From the NCBI GenBank assembly GCA_024276605.1, contig JAJRWX010000036.1, forward strand, positions 1-40,987: DNA of 40,987 nucleotides, given 5' to 3'. The DNA comes from Planctomycetota bacterium (lineage in GTDB: Bacteria > Planctomycetota > Phycisphaerae > UBA1845). The notes below the pieces were generated by a model that made no database searches, was not told where the DNA came from, and worked only from the letters and a program-made list of their open reading frames with translations. The position numbers and the translations under genes were made by a program. This document shows, piece by piece, positions 35,889 through 40,987 of the stretch (positions within the stretch are counted from its first letter, which is position 1; every line of letters starts with the position of its first letter).

Positions 35889-37346
35889 CTAAACGACAGG
35901 CAACGAAATGTCGGTCGAATCCTCATCTTCATCGTCCTCCGGCTCATCCTCCAGCACGACCGAGGCAACTGTATCAACCAGATTTTCCAGGTCGTCATCG
36001 CGAATGGTGCGAAGATCAAAGCAGATGGCTTCATCACGGATACGGGCGATGACCGGGACGTCCGCCTCCCGCATAGCCGAGGTAATCTCGCTAGCACTAG
36101 CCCCCGCCGGTCGCCACTGTACGATCACTGTGGGTATTTCACGGGCCGGCAGCGTACCGCCACCCGCAAACGCCACATCCGATCCCACGTAAAAGTGCTC
36201 CTCAGGCAGCGCCTGAGACAGCATTTCGGCCAGTTGGTCCGCTCGTGGTGCCAGGGCACCGGTGGAAGCGGTGAGCATAGCCAGTGTGGGGACCAGGGTT
36301 GGTGCCTGATCGCGGTCGGCGTAACATCGCAGAGTAGCTTCCAGGGCGAGTAGTGTCAGCTTCCCTACGCGATAGGTGCGCATCAGCGGATTGGCTTCTA
36401 TGTTATCGATTAAATCTTGCCGACCGACAATAATGCCGCATTGCGGCCCGCCGAGTAGTTTATCACCGGAAAAGCATATCAGGTCCGCACCGGCTTGAAG
36501 CGACGACTGGACATCAGGCTCGTCGGGTAATCCCAACGACTTCAAATCGAAAAGTGCGCCGCTACCGAGATCGTCCACCACAGGTAATTCGAAACGATGG
36601 GCTAACGCTACCAGTTCCGCGATGGCCACGCTTTCGCAAAAACCTTCGATGCGATAGTTGCTCGTGTGTACGCGCATCAGTATAGCTGTGTCGCTACAGA
36701 TCGCTTGCTCAAAATCGCGGAGGCGGGTGCGATTGGTCGTCCCCACTTCGTGGAGCACAACACCGGCTGCCCGCATGATGTCCGGTAAGCGAAAACTGCC
36801 GCCGATTTCAACCAATTGACCGCGCGACACGACCACCTCTCTACCTTGGGCTAGGGTCTGTAGGATCAGGAGCGTAGCTGCGGCGTTGTTGTTGACGACC
36901 GTAGCCGCCTCTGCGCCGGTAAGTTCAATAAGGTGCTGAGCGACGTGTGCTTGTCGCTTCCCGCGTCGCCCGGTTTCCAGATCATATTCAAGATTGCAAT
37001 ATCCCCCGATGCTCTCAGCCAATGCCTCAACAGCCCCTTCACAAAGAGGTGCACGCCCCAGCCCTGTATGCAGGACAACGCCTGTCGCGTTAATCACACC
37101 ACGCAAACCGGGCGTGGATCGTTCAAGTAGATATTCCTCAGCCAGAGCTACAAGATCGTCAGGATCGATGGATATGTCGTCGTCATCAGAAAGAATAGCC
37201 TCGCGTGTTTCGTCGATAGCCGCTTGCAAGGAGGAAACGACATAAGCCCGCGGTGAACCTTGTAGCCAGTCCACAACTTCTTCATGTTCAAGCAACGAAG
37301 ACACCGAAGGCAGTTCTCGTAGCCTTTTTTTCATCGTAGCTTTCAT
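35889..37346 (-). CDS. selA: L-seryl-tRNA(Sec) selenium transferase SelA
   Basis: SelA is a PLP enzyme that changes serine on tRNA(Sec) to selenocysteine with selenophosphate. The product of about 485 residues has the N-terminal LRELPSVSSLLEHEEV stretch, GVINATGVVLHTGLGRAPL, YDLETGRRGKR, the VVNNNAAATLLIL strand, the Arg-containing VHTSNYRIEGF, and FSGDKLLGGPQCG with the PLP lysine at about 296. The ATG at 37346 follows GGAGG five bases upstream, an excellent site; the frame is open further to a TTG at 37394 with no such signal. The last 20 residues are strongly acidic. selB, selD and tRNA(Sec) are not in the window. Confidence 0.93.
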   Translation of the reverse strand: MKATMKKRLRELPSVSSLLEHEEVVDWLQGSPRAYVVSSLQAAIDETREAILSDDDDISIDPDDLVALAEEYLLERSTPGLRGVINATGVVLHTGLGRAPLCEGAVEALAESIGGYCNLEYDLETGRRGKRQAHVAQHLIELTGAEAATVVNNNAAATLLILQTLAQGREVVVSRGQLVEIGGSFRLPDIMRAAGVVLHEVGTTNRTRLRDFEQAICSDTAILMRVHTSNYRIEGFCESVAIAELVALAHRFELPVVDDLGSGALFDLKSLGLPDEPDVQSSLQAGADLICFSGDKLLGGPQCGIIVGRQDLIDNIEANPLMRTYRVGKLTLLALEATLRCYADRDQAPTLVPTLAMLTASTGALAPRADQLAEMLSQALPEEHFYVGSDVAFAGGGTLPAREIPTVIVQWRPAGASASEITSAMREADVPVIARIRDEAICFDLRTIRDDDLENLVDTVASVVLEDEPEDDEDEDSTDISLPVV

Positions 37347-37518
37347 ACAGGCCTCCAATACTCTTGCACGGGCGCGGCTATGATAGGCCAACAAGTCGCT
37401 CTAATCGTAACGGAACACTCGCTTTTATGTAATATGATCGGTATGACCGCGTCTCAGGGCTTTTTTTATAGAGTTTGACATCAGAATCTGCTATCATGCT
37501 GGTATGGGGAAGGCGATG
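37347..37518. other. Spacer between divergent selA and the IPTL-CTERM gene
   Basis: Promoters for both genes should lie here. A perfect TTGACA is found near 37477 on the plus strand, but no -10 box stands at the right distance (TATCAT is only about 11 bases away). Confidence 0.4.
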
Positions 37519-38874
37519 ATGATTCACACTAAAACATTATGTACTGTCGTTACATTACTTTTTGCATCGGTTGTCTGCGCAGATGATTTTATCCAGCGCT
37601 ACGAAGGCGATGTCTTTCCCTTTGATCCCGTTGCTGGGTGGGACATCTTCAATCCCTGTGAAGACGAATGTACGGAACTACTCGATAACGGGCACTTCAT
37701 ACTACAGTGGGACGATAGTGCGGACATAGTCAACTATAGCTATACCATTGCTGTACCACCCACACCACAGCCATCTTCTCTTTGGGTGGAATGGCGCTTT
37801 CGCTCAAACAATGCATTCCCCCTAGTCGCTTTTGGCTGTGATGCGAGCTTTTTCGTTCAGTGGGCCGGGATCGGCGAAGTCATCTCTTTGCATAGCGATT
37901 CTGCGTTTTCGTTTGGCGGGGACTTTTTTATCCTTGGACTAGATCCAACCCAATTCCATACCTACCGATTTGAAAGTGTTGACGGCACGAACTATCGCGT
38001 TTCCGTGGATGGTCTCGTGTTCATTAACTCGCCCAACACACCGATTCCTACTGGAAACTTCATCCAGTTTCGCGGTAACGGAGGATGTTCTAGCAACAAC
38101 ATCCCAGTAGTCATCAACGAATGGGATTTTGTGCGGTCGGGTACGGTGTCCTTCGGTGAAACCATTGTAGCTACCGATCCACCCACAGGATTTGTTAACC
38201 CCTTAGATCATCCCAATCTGGATCGATTCGTGGTGACGTTTGACGTGGCCAATTATGCCTATCCGGAAGACATCACCATTGGCGTAACCGGGGGCAATAT
38301 TCCATTGATCTCAAAAACCCGACGACGTGATAACGATGAACCAACTAACCTGGAAATTGTGTTGACCCAGCCTTTACCGATGGGTGAAACCACGACGTTC
38401 ACTTTTAACGACGGACAGGCAACCAATGAAGTGGCGTTTACATATGGATGTCCTAACCCGGCGGATAATATAGACCCAGACAATGACGGCATAGCGAATT
38501 GCCTGGATGACTGTCCATTTGACCCGAATAAGTCGGTCCCAGGTCAATGCGGTTGCGGTAGTTCAGATGTTGATACAGACAGCGATGGCACTTCAGACTG
38601 TATCGACGGTTGCCCAACCGACCCCAACAAAACAGATCCCGGCGAGTGTGGATGTGGCCGACCTGAAGACAATGTTGGCGATAGCGATGGGGACTCAGTT
38701 GCGGATTGCGTAGATCAATGCCCCGGAGGCGACGACACCATCGATCTAAACGAAAACGGCACCCCTGACTGCGCCGAGGCTATTCCCACCGTGTCGCATT
38801 GGGGATTGGTTGTGCTTACTTTACTACTACTCACCATGTCCAAATGCGCCGCACGTTTAAGATCAATGGCGTAG
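37519..38874 (+). CDS. Secreted protein with calcium-binding repeats and IPTL-CTERM tail
   Basis: The product has about 451 residues. A signal peptide ends VVCA before DDFIQRYEGD. The first 220 residues look like a concanavalin-like sheet domain with FVQWAGIGEVISLHSDS and YRFESVDGTNYRVSVDGL. After a beta domain, thrombospondin type 3-like acidic loops follow: DPDNDGIANCLDDCPFDPNK, DTDSDGTSDCIDGCPTDPNK and DSDGDSVADCVDQCPG; these bind calcium. The tail IPTVSHWGLVVLTLLLLTMS with a basic end is an IPTL-CTERM-type sorting signal. The ATG at 37519 is best placed after GGGGAAGG; an ATG at 37504 has no ribosome site. It lies just before the IS110 element. Confidence 0.87.
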   Translation: MIHTKTLCTVVTLLFASVVCADDFIQRYEGDVFPFDPVAGWDIFNPCEDECTELLDNGHFILQWDDSADIVNYSYTIAVPPTPQPSSLWVEWRFRSNNAFPLVAFGCDASFFVQWAGIGEVISLHSDSAFSFGGDFFILGLDPTQFHTYRFESVDGTNYRVSVDGLVFINSPNTPIPTGNFIQFRGNGGCSSNNIPVVINEWDFVRSGTVSFGETIVATDPPTGFVNPLDHPNLDRFVVTFDVANYAYPEDITIGVTGGNIPLISKTRRRDNDEPTNLEIVLTQPLPMGETTTFTFNDGQATNEVAFTYGCPNPADNIDPDNDGIANCLDDCPFDPNKSVPGQCGCGSSDVDTDSDGTSDCIDGCPTDPNKTDPGECGCGRPEDNVGDSDGDSVADCVDQCPGGDDTIDLNENGTPDCAEAIPTVSHWGLVVLTLLLLTMSKCAARLRSMA

Positions 38875-38888
38875 CGTCGGTCGGGTGA

Positions 38889-38925
38889 GTTTTGAGACAT
38901 AGTCAATATGTATATGTCTGAAAAC
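38889..38925 (-). other. Stem-loop at the transposase 3' end of the IS110 element
   Basis: GTTTTGAGACATA at 38889-38901 pairs with TATGTCTGAAAAC at 38913-38925 around an 11-base loop, with one internal mismatch. It starts four bases past the transposase stop codon and may be the right end of the element, a terminator, or both. Confidence 0.65.
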
Positions 38926-38929
38926 CAGT

Positions 38930-40234
38930 TTATGCCGCTGATTTTTTATGGGTCATGTAGTACTCCAGGTCGTATTTTCGGTTGTCCCGTAGCATGGCGA
39001 AGATAATGTCCGACAGTCGGCGTGCCAACCGAACGCGGGCGGCGCCGCCGATGATACCACAGGATACCAAATGTTTTTGATAGGCCTTCGAGGCCACGTG
39101 GTACCTCGGAGCGTTCAGCGCCAGTTGCATGAAAGCTTGCCTCAGACGTTTATTGCAACGTCGGTTCTTCACCTGTTTAGGTTTTCGCCCACTGCTATCA
39201 GCACGCGGCGCGGTCCCGTTGTAGCGGGCGAATCGATCGGCAGTGGCAAACCGTTCGATCGAAAGCGTCTCACCGTGGATGGCACCGGCTGTCACCGGTC
39301 CGATCCCTTTGAAGCTAACCAGCGGTGACTTGATGGACTCAAGCAACGCTTCGATTCGCTTCCTGATTTGCTTCAGGCCGGCATTGAGGTATTCCAGATG
39401 GCGGCCCAGCATGCGAATATCTTCCGCCCAGGCCGACCAGCGATTCGGATTCTGCTTCCCCAGTGCCAGCACCATTACCCTGGCGGTACCCTGAATGTCG
39501 CACGCCTTTTTCGCGCAGCCTTCGAGATTAATTCGTCCACAGCTAGCCTTACGAATCAACGCAACCAGGTCATCGCGATTCGCTTGGGCCGCCTCCGCTG
39601 GCGTGGGGTACTGTTGCCACATGGTCAACGCCGCCGCACCATCAATATGGCTGAAAAACCGCTGATAATCAGCCAACCAAGCTAGGCGGAGCACGGCGTG
39701 CAGTTCGTTGCACACCGCCGTGTGGTTTTTGGTCCATCGCCCGTGGCGACGCGACAGTTGGCGAAGCCAATGGTATTCACAAGCATTCGGATCTGCTTGG
39801 ATCGCTTCTTGGGCGGGCGCCCGAGTCAGATCGGGTTGGACCATGACGAAACGGGCCACAGCCTCGGCGTCAACCAGATCGTTGGCGTCGGCCCCGAGCA
39901 CCTCTTTGAAACGGGCCACCTTCAAAGCACAGACCACTACCGGTTGGAAACCTTCCCCTCTGAGAAGGCATGTCAACGCCTCTCCGTAGGCGGTAGCTTC
40001 TTCGATGGCAATGGTCAGATGTCCGCCACTTTGCTGATGCCATTCTTTCAATTGTTCGACAAACCGCGTCATCCCGGCGATCGTGTTGTCGATCATGCGT
40101 CGCTCAAGGCGTACACACGATCCGATCCACATAGCCGCAATACCATGTTTGTCGAGACCGGGGTCGATACCCACAACGATCCCCGTACTTGCAGATACAG
40201 CCGTCGTCGATGGTTTTTCATTTGCGTGTTTCAT
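38930..40234 (-). CDS. IS110-family transposase (DEDD recombinase)
   Basis: The 434-residue product is a bridge-RNA-type recombinase. The N-terminal RuvC-like domain has the four acidic residues: Asp24 in VVGIDPGLDKHG, Glu78/79 in LTIAIEEATAYG, and Asp119 and Asp122 in ADANDLVDAEAVARF. The C-terminal Transposase_20 part has SFKGIGPVTAGAIHGE, RFARYNGTAPRADSSGRK (with serines where the catalytic Ser is expected) and NKRLRQAFMQLAL. GGGAG lies about seven bases before the ATG at 40234; the frame is open further upstream to 40345 through the hairpin region, which is judged non-coding. It appears intact and perhaps active. Confidence 0.93.
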   Translation of the reverse strand: MKHANEKPSTTAVSASTGIVVGIDPGLDKHGIAAMWIGSCVRLERRMIDNTIAGMTRFVEQLKEWHQQSGGHLTIAIEEATAYGEALTCLLRGEGFQPVVVCALKVARFKEVLGADANDLVDAEAVARFVMVQPDLTRAPAQEAIQADPNACEYHWLRQLSRRHGRWTKNHTAVCNELHAVLRLAWLADYQRFFSHIDGAAALTMWQQYPTPAEAAQANRDDLVALIRKASCGRINLEGCAKKACDIQGTARVMVLALGKQNPNRWSAWAEDIRMLGRHLEYLNAGLKQIRKRIEALLESIKSPLVSFKGIGPVTAGAIHGETLSIERFATADRFARYNGTAPRADSSGRKPKQVKNRRCNKRLRQAFMQLALNAPRYHVASKAYQKHLVSCGIIGGAARVRLARRLSDIIFAMLRDNRKYDLEYYMTHKKSAA

Positions 40235-40260
40235 AGACGTTCTCCCGTTAGAATAAAGTG

Positions 40261-40394
40261 CCTCCTGTGGGTCGAAGCCAGTTAAACGCTTTCTGGCAGA
40301 GTTTTGATGTCGTTGTCCCGCAGGAGGTCTTTCCACCGGTGGCAATCACCCGGAAGTGTTGGACAAGCCCACGAAGCCTTGCCGGCGGAAAGAC
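40261..40394 (-). ncRNA. Candidate IS110 bridge RNA (two stem-loops)
   Basis: Two long hairpins stand back to back upstream of the transposase. Stem A pairs CCTCCTGTGGG (40261-40271) with CCCGCAGGAGG (40317-40327) and holds an inner GCCAG/CTGGC hairpin at 40277-40297. Stem B pairs GTCTTTCCACCGG (40327-40339) with CCGGCGGAAAGAC (40382-40394). Each leaves about 40-45 bases of loop. In IS110 elements of the IS621 type, a bridge RNA with a target-binding and a donor-binding loop is made from this end. The strand is taken as that of the transposase. Which loop does what, and the RNA ends, are not known. Confidence 0.6.
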
Positions 40395-40430
40395 GCTTGT
40401 ACACCAATCGAACACCTTTGTCTTAACTGG

Positions 40431-40673
40431 CCCATGTCCTTTTGTTTGGACATGGGGGAGTCGATGATGCGTGCCCAGCGCCAAGACAACGACACTACGA
40501 AGACATGACGAATCTGTTGAGTTTCATATTCGGGCGATTTTCTGCCGACGGTGATACACTTTCCTTACATGATGAGATTCGCCCGCGATCATCGCCTCCC
40601 CCACCTCGAAACGAGGTGGGCCACCCGTCGTCCTGATCCGAGCCGGTAGCGCCAGCGCCCGGTGTCTTCGGAT
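40431..40673 (+). repeat. Hairpin plus GAGCCG repeat, copy 2 (flanking the IS110 element)
   Basis: The hairpin CCCATGTCC (40431-40439) / GGACATGGG (40448-40456) and GGAGTCGATGAT match 5093-5130. The 34 bp block at 40640-40673, starting GAGCCGGTAGCGCCAGC, matches 5144-5177 with about three differences. In this copy about 170 bases lie between the two parts, including the stem CCCACCTCG (40600-40608) / CGAGGTGGG (40612-40620) with an AAA loop. Confidence 0.7.
40600..40620. other. Perfect 9 bp hairpin
   Basis: CCCACCTCG, AAA, CGAGGTGGG form a tight stem with no T-run. It sits inside the spread-out repeat copy at 40431-40673, and no gene ends near it. Confidence 0.6.
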
Positions 40674-40987
40674 GGTCACACACGCCATAAATGTTCTACG
40701 TGATTGCGGTGTATATGGCATGGGAGGGGGCGGATCTTGTGTCGAAAGGCCATGCAGGTGTCACTGTCATTGCACGGAACATCCTTCCCCCACCCTTTGC
40801 CAGTAGGCAAAGGATGGGGCACCCGCGCCGGTTGTACATTTGCATAGTAGCCGCTTCCTTACCAAGCTGTCTAAATACCTTGCGTACGCTGGATGGCTTG
40901 CGCCTCTTCAAACCCGGCTGGTGTTCCGTTTGGTTGGCCCGGATCATGGGGCAACCTGGCGACCGAACTTTACCAGGCGAGGGTAGG
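40674..40987. repeat. Window end with REP-like hairpin repeat, copy 3 (40772-40825)
   Basis: From GCACGGAACATCCTTCCCCC at 40772, the sequence matches the hairpin half of the tails at 15001-15097 and 17549-17645, here with the better paired stem CCCACCCTTTGCC / GGCAAAGGATGGG. No gene is supported in the rest; an open frame on the minus strand (40696-40947) crosses the repeat and has no ribosome site. Confidence 0.65.

Follow-up and report, generated by a model that had tools for sequence, protein, structure and literature searches.

The window analysed here is a 40,987-nucleotide contig (JAJRWX010000036.1) of a Planctomycetota bacterium of the class Phycisphaerae, and its minus strand carries an insertion sequence of the IS110 group near one end (Table 1). 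The recombinase of this element contains the DEDD_Tnp_IS110 and Transposase_20 domains in Pfam, and it scored 145.6 bits against the NCBIfam model 'IS110 family RNA-guided transposase', for which the cut-off is 140. All five catalytic residues, the D-E-D-D set and the C-terminal serine, were present by alignment, with D24, E78, D119, D122 and S348 corresponding to D11, E60, D102, D105 and S241 of IS621. Two solved sequences, the ISCro4 and IS621 transposases, were matched at E 0.1 or better. Outside the element, the ORF at 37504-38874 (plus strand) likely encodes a secreted protein in which D-rich motifs of the calcium type are repeated and which ends in a C-terminus of the IPTVSHWGL... type, taken here to be IPTL-CTERM, and the ORF at 35889-37394 (minus strand) presumably resembles SelA (selenium transferase).

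Table 1. Coordinates of the insertion sequence and its features in the window
Feature	Position	Strand	Remarks
IS110-group insertion sequence	38888-40429	minus	1542 bp, one CA core counted
Left non-coding end (LE), proposed bridge RNA inside	40235-40427	minus	193 nt; first 133 nt including the core align gap-free in three genomes
Right non-coding end (RE)	38888-38929	minus	42 nt
Recombinase ORF	38930-40234	minus	434 aa; Pfam PF01548 and PF02371; NCBIfam NF033542
Left CA core	40428-40429	minus	GGGC-CA-GTTAAG
Right CA core	38886-38887	minus	AAAACT-CA-CCCG
REP-like target hairpin, left part through core	40428-40470	minus	own-genome homology
Target-binding hairpin	40327-40394	minus	68 nt; loop matches target
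Donor-binding hairpin	40261-40327	minus	67 nt; loop matches element ends
Left target guide CGTGGGC	40367-40373	minus	one G.T wobble to target
Right target guide CGGGTG	40347-40352	minus	core complement included
Left donor guide TCAAAACT	40300-40307	minus	identical to RE end
Right donor guide TTTAACTG	40279-40286	minus	complement of core and LE, one wobble
Candidate donor-loop handshake guide GC	40277-40278	minus	complementary to two target bases left of core; by eye
Candidate -35 box TTGACT	38901-38906	minus	17 nt to TAAGAC in LE; promoter only in circular form

The left boundary of the element was set by the end of homology to a dispersed, REP-like repeat at the core (40428). When the host genome was queried with the element and its flanks, at least 47 places were found (40 of 123 first-look candidates were scored), comprising the element itself and 46 matches to the left flank only. 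None of these 46 extended more than 3 bases beyond the core, and most of those reaching the core contained a REP-like hairpin ending in ...GGACATGGGCCA or a near variant. The right boundary was set by the repeated CA core and by the conservation of the RE in two related genomes, G034 and G017. The short CA core is common to both element ends, and a single CA is found in uninterrupted copies of the repeat. Because the flanking-repeat homology ends at the core, we place the element at 40429-38888 with the LE and RE lengths given in Table 1, and the region that had been proposed as a bridge RNA in the initial annotation lies inside these ends.

The uninterrupted site TGGGCCACCCG occurred 28 times in the host genome, compared with 2 times for the reversed control, and 26 and 30 times in two congeners (0 and 3 for the control). 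The corresponding counts were 21 and 7 in G017 and 9 and 5 in G034. In the window, REP-like hairpins were clustered at 40428-40470, 40590-40640 and 40786-40830, the third read by eye, and TGGGCCACCCG was present at 40617-40627 on the plus strand, in a REP-like hairpin beside the element and in the opposite orientation. This cluster is like a BIME layout in a planctomycete.

Across the RE-LE junction, the motif TTGAC(T/C)-17-TAAGAC was found in all three elements. Because its -10 part is a weak match, we infer from the motif no more than a possible promoter at this junction.

Two abutting hairpins in the left end

Two stems were identified in the LE. In stem 1, GTCTTTCCGCCGG (40394-40382) pairs with CCGGTGGAAAGAC (40339-40327) over 13 pairs, and in stem 2, CCTCCTGCGGG (40327-40317) faces CCCACAGGAGG (40271-40261) over 11 positions, of which 10 are paired and one is a C.A mismatch. 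The initial annotation had described two adjacent stems of these lengths that share one base, with no obvious separate 5' hairpin. Both stems are where it had placed them, with base 40327 common to both, apart from the mismatch in the 11-position stem. In the alignment, G034 has A.C as the outermost pair of stem 1, and base 40327 is therefore better assigned to stem 2, so that the stems in the window are better given as 12 and 10 pairs with a zero-length linker.

The absence of a 5' hairpin was also borne out by predicted folding. The 25-nt leaders before the first hairpin had energies of -0.1 (window), -2.7 (G034) and -3.8 kcal/mol (G017), with no stable separate hairpin predicted in any of the three, compared with -14.5 kcal/mol for the E. 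coli IS621 RNA (first 33 nt), used as a control. As the predicted fold of the whole region suggests, an outer stem, AAGGUG/CACUUU, could enclose both hairpins; 11 of its 12 cells were paired in the window and G034, with no two-sided change, a count that leaves out G017, which is without the 3' side. The minimum-free-energy folds of trimmed sequences showed pairings other than this outer stem. A scan of the window at Rfam gathering thresholds returned zero matches.

The folding energy of the whole 205-nt region was like that of shuffled sequences (z = -0.85, 37 of 200 as good) and was rejected as proof of a structured RNA. Against mononucleotide shuffles, the two hairpins alone gave z = -3.14 (0 of 200 as good) and z = -2.98 (1 of 200), and the two together z = -4.05 (0 of 200), values that are biased because the hairpins were chosen after inspection. 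The low whole-region score is what would be expected if these were chance hairpins in an ordinary non-coding end with coincidental guide matches. The case for a guide RNA rests on how well the loops match the insertion site and the ends of the element, as described below, and not on folding energy.

Pairing was kept in 54 of 56 stem cells across the window, G034 and G017, so the expectation that the stems are kept in relatives held for these two relatives, apart from the 3' arm of stem 2, which G017 lacks. There was one two-sided change, which 267 of 500 shuffles equalled; the covariation is without significance because the sequences comprise only three distinct ones. The gap-free alignment of 133 columns from the three genomes had 41 variable columns, as counted by hand from the list of invariant columns. 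Twenty-six of them fell in the 5' leader (columns 16-27), the left target guide and apical loop (56-69), and the right target guide and the next base (77-80 and 85), and the other 15 fell elsewhere. The high conservation of the remainder of the RNA argues against chance hairpins. Just 5' of the target hairpin, the heptamer GTACAAG (40396-40402, minus strand) was invariant in all three sequences and had no pairing partner in the two-hairpin model; it is perhaps a recombinase contact.

The hairpins lie directly upstream of the recombinase start codon, as they would if they formed a 5'-UTR regulator of the recombinase mRNA, acting as an attenuator or by sequestering the ribosome site, and were not a guide RNA. 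There is a precedent in ISPpu9, which the available part of PMC8450116 describes as controlled by two small RNAs and a 5'-UTR structure. In our element, however, GGGAGA, the likely ribosome site, is not part of the second stem but follows it on the 3' side. Regulation would also leave unexplained both the loop matches to target and donor on the two sides of the core and the changes of the target loop that track the insertion site. We therefore regard a regulator alone as very unlikely, while a dual role as guide RNA and 5'-UTR regulator is conceivable.

Guide matches to the insertion site and the element ends

The first loop matches the target GGGC-CA-CCCG, with CGTGGGC corresponding to its left half and CGGGTG to the complement of CACCCG. 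The order in the LE is target loop first and donor loop second, each with a left and a right guide. These matches of loop bases to the element ends and the target agree with the bridge-RNA reading of the initial annotation.

The donor loop of the window scored 16, a value reached by none of 5648 other CA sites and none of 20,000 shuffled loops, and that of G034 scored 15 (0 of 3123 other CA sites; 10 of 20,000 shuffled loops). Shuffled loops did as well as the target loop in 22 (window) and 4 (G034) of 20,000 cases. With guide positions fixed and Watson-Crick pairs only, the window target loop formed 11 pairs, equalled at 1 of 8169 other CA sites (three REP-like sites were set aside from this pool), and the G034 target loop formed 13 pairs, equalled at 0 of 8169, the fixed positions in both cases having come from the free-position test on the same elements. 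When wobble pairs were added at fixed positions, 9 (window) and 0 (G034) of 8169 CA sites were as good. The target match was weaker with free positions and wobble, where it was equalled at 50 of 5648 CA sites for the window, a pool that includes REP copies, and at 12 of 3123 for G034. The 50 sites are the kind of background that coincidental matches would produce, but the donor matches equalled at no site, together with fixed-position matches equalled at 1 and 0 sites in two elements with different targets, leave chance hairpins with a negligible probability.

With positions free and wobble allowed, the window and G034 target loops also scored 13 on the donor, which is the window loop's own-target score. 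By eye, this score comes from the conserved CAAGGCT with two wobbles, and we do not read it as a guide, though it may carry some meaning. Also by eye, the G034 target guide is the only left guide in which the second core base is not mismatched. In the donor loop, the core complement is followed by GC in both sequences that could be scored (window and G034), and this GC can pair with the GC preceding the target core. The target loop has an A in all three that can pair with the T preceding the donor core, and the next base pairs in one of three. These details fit the handshake pairing of IS621, and by analogy they may have the same role.

The recombinase superfamily is common to IS110 elements and the IS1111/seekRNA group, so another guide-RNA arrangement like that of seekRNAs was considered. 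The guides of our element lie in an LE longer than the RE (193 vs 42 nt), and the bottom-strand match comes before the top-strand match; both are features of the IS110 group in the available parts of PMC11208160 and PMC11187229. The long RE of the IS1111 group was absent, and no subterminal inverted repeats of 7-17 bp were seen at the junctions, where the inverted match was only the 4-bp GTCT/AGAC (TCT/AGA in G034, by eye). A seekRNA-like arrangement is thus extremely improbable.

Distribution and retargeting in related elements

The element belongs to a narrow clade. A covariance model built from the three sequences matched only the host genome, G034 and G017 (six places) among 397 genomes of the class, under stricter filters and with at most eight candidates scored per genome among the matches listed. 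Protein searches at E 1e-25 found relatives in 2 of the 114 genomes searched from the order, the host genome (G000) and G034, and in 1 of 392 genomes of a phylum sample (G000). At E 1e-12, 4 of 397 class genomes were positive (G000, G034, G017 and, at 24%, the distant G563), and at E 0.001, 14 of 60 relatives were, among which, besides G000, only G034 and G017 were close and the rest were 26-35% identical. A left-end pattern with up to 2 mismatches occurred at 18 places in 18 of the 114 genomes of the order; 16 of these were dropped, since by eye the same element continues from the places in G000 and G034 but not from the others. This pattern missed G017, which was recovered by DNA search.

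In viral contigs, there was no protein relative, and a 25-base pattern from the donor loop had no exact match. Plasmids gave zero DNA matches to the LE; 488 plasmid records had protein relatives, all below 60% identity, and the 20 listed were 25-27% identical. The leaders of two distant planctomycete IS110 elements (L083 and L084; 24 and 27% identity) had no obvious kinship by eye, and both were excluded from every count. A truncated recombinase fragment was found at a contig end of a named Planctomycetota MAG (JADFIX010000151.1, positions 1-60), with a best segment of 17 residues that was 100% identical.

G034 belongs to the same family but another genus, and its recombinase was 61 and 64% identical in two pieces. 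The pieces lie in different frames and meet at residues 135-136, a split that is possibly decay or a sequencing error. This genome carries the same element at a different site, GTGTGC-CA | ... | AAAACT-CA-CGGCCGTG. Of its two donor guides, the left is unchanged and the right is short of one U on the 5' side. Its target guides, GTGTGC and TGGCCGTG (one wobble), match its own flanks (site GTGTGC-CA-CGGCC). The uninterrupted site GTGTGCCACGGCC was present in 2 copies in G034 and in 0 copies in four other genomes, and both G034 copies run on into GTGTCGGCCGTGC, as does the sequence next to the element. On their own targets, the two loops formed 11 (window) and 13 (G034) Watson-Crick pairs, compared with 5 and 5 on each other's.

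G017 is a third member with the window's type of target, its target loop scoring higher on the window target (12) than on that of G034 (5). Four left and four right element ends were found in this genome, all at contig ends. With wobble allowed, the match lengths were 7, 8, 8 and 5 nt between its left target guide CGATGGGC and the four left flanks, and 6, 5, 7 and 7 nt between its right target guide CCGGGTG and the four right flanks. By eye, the left flanks resemble REP-like hairpins. The assembly ends within the donor loop, before the right donor guide.

The window and G034 form a clean natural experiment, in which the donor guides are nearly fixed and the target guides fit each element's own site. 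In G034 the target guides have been replaced and the donor guides have hardly changed, and we conclude from this comparison of sequences that the element switched its target from one repeat family to a different site.

A proposed compact bridge RNA in a planctomycete

Together with the loop matches, these comparisons make us highly confident that the IS110 element encodes its own bridge RNA on the minus strand, at about 40261-40420, a reading that rests on sequence. By homology to IS621, the element would excise as a circle via its CA cores, the RE-LE junction would form a promoter in the circle, and the bridge RNA would be transcribed from the LE and bind the recombinase. In the sequence, the first hairpin loop has a left guide that is the same as the left half of the target and a right guide that complements the core and right half, and the second loop has the equivalent guide pair for the element's own RE-LE junction, so that the recombinase would bring together the circle and the host REP-like repeat. 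The two would then be joined via two RNA-DNA pairings, with strand exchange at CA.

The likeness to IS621 (PMC11208160 and PMC11208158, in their available parts) includes a guide RNA in the LE with the target loop before the donor loop, a left guide identical to the top-strand left half and a right guide complementing the core and right half, insertion in a REP, and the DEDD and serine residues. The loop modules are also similar in size, with 68 and 67 nt here and 65 and 68 nt in IS621. The two differ in the linker, which is 11 nt in IS621 (modules 34-98 and 110-177; PMC11208158, in part), whereas here there is none and the stems overlap by one base. They also differ in the core (CA vs CT), in the gap between the donor guides (13 nt vs 26 nt at 131-156 of the IS621 RNA, from the same partial sources), and in the recombinase, which at 434 aa is 108 residues longer than the 326 aa of IS621. 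The planctomycete leaders are predicted to lack the stable 5' stem-loop of IS621. In E. coli, deletion of that stem-loop lowers RNA binding and slightly lowers recombination, and the two loops of one complex were suggested to come from two RNA molecules (available part of PMC11208158). Given these data, the compact RNA could still work.

Other relatives share parts of this pattern. ISPpu9, ISPpu10 and ISPa11 likewise insert into repetitive extragenic palindromes, in different hosts (PMC1525189, in part), and bridge RNAs of ISPpu10 and ISPa11 are modelled in PMC11208160. IS1111/seekRNA elements also have RNA-guided DEDD recombinases, but they carry the RNA in the RE, with reversed guide order and long subterminal inverted repeats, and natural retargeting by guide change is known there for ISEc11 and ISXne4 (PMC11187229, in part). 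As a separate observation, the first part of the LE is duplicated in E. coli IS621 copies (L091, about 1501-1580, and L082). The duplication junction, at ATCGGGCCT, lies within the DNA of the left target guide, which resembles IS621's own REP target; the duplication looks like a self-insertion into the guide that later collapsed.

The initial annotation had also proposed a new IS110 subtype. In partial support of this, the clade is narrow (3 of 397 class genomes) and the RNA compact; the element nevertheless falls within the IS110 group, and among the subset of published bridge RNA structures that were compared, the layout may be a new variant. We put forward as a tentative proposal, less probable than not, that these elements have a compact bridge RNA in which the hairpins abut, with neither linker nor 5' stem-loop. 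It would consist of two coaxially stackable modules and a short leader with the invariant GTACAAG, perhaps closed by the AAGGUG/CACUUU outer helix, and would go with a larger recombinase, a CA core and natural retargeting between unrelated repeat families.

The principle is not new, because guide-RNA transposition into REPs and natural retargeting have been published; the available parts of PMC11208160, PMC11208158, PMC11187229 and PMC1525189 cover REP targeting, retargeting and the bridge RNAs that lie in the left ends of IS110 elements. A literature search, with most subscription papers outside its reach, found no paper that brings bridge RNAs and IS110 together with planctomycetes. Such a system from a planctomycete, with a CA core and a small RNA, helps to ask what a bridge RNA needs, and it is a possible editing tool.
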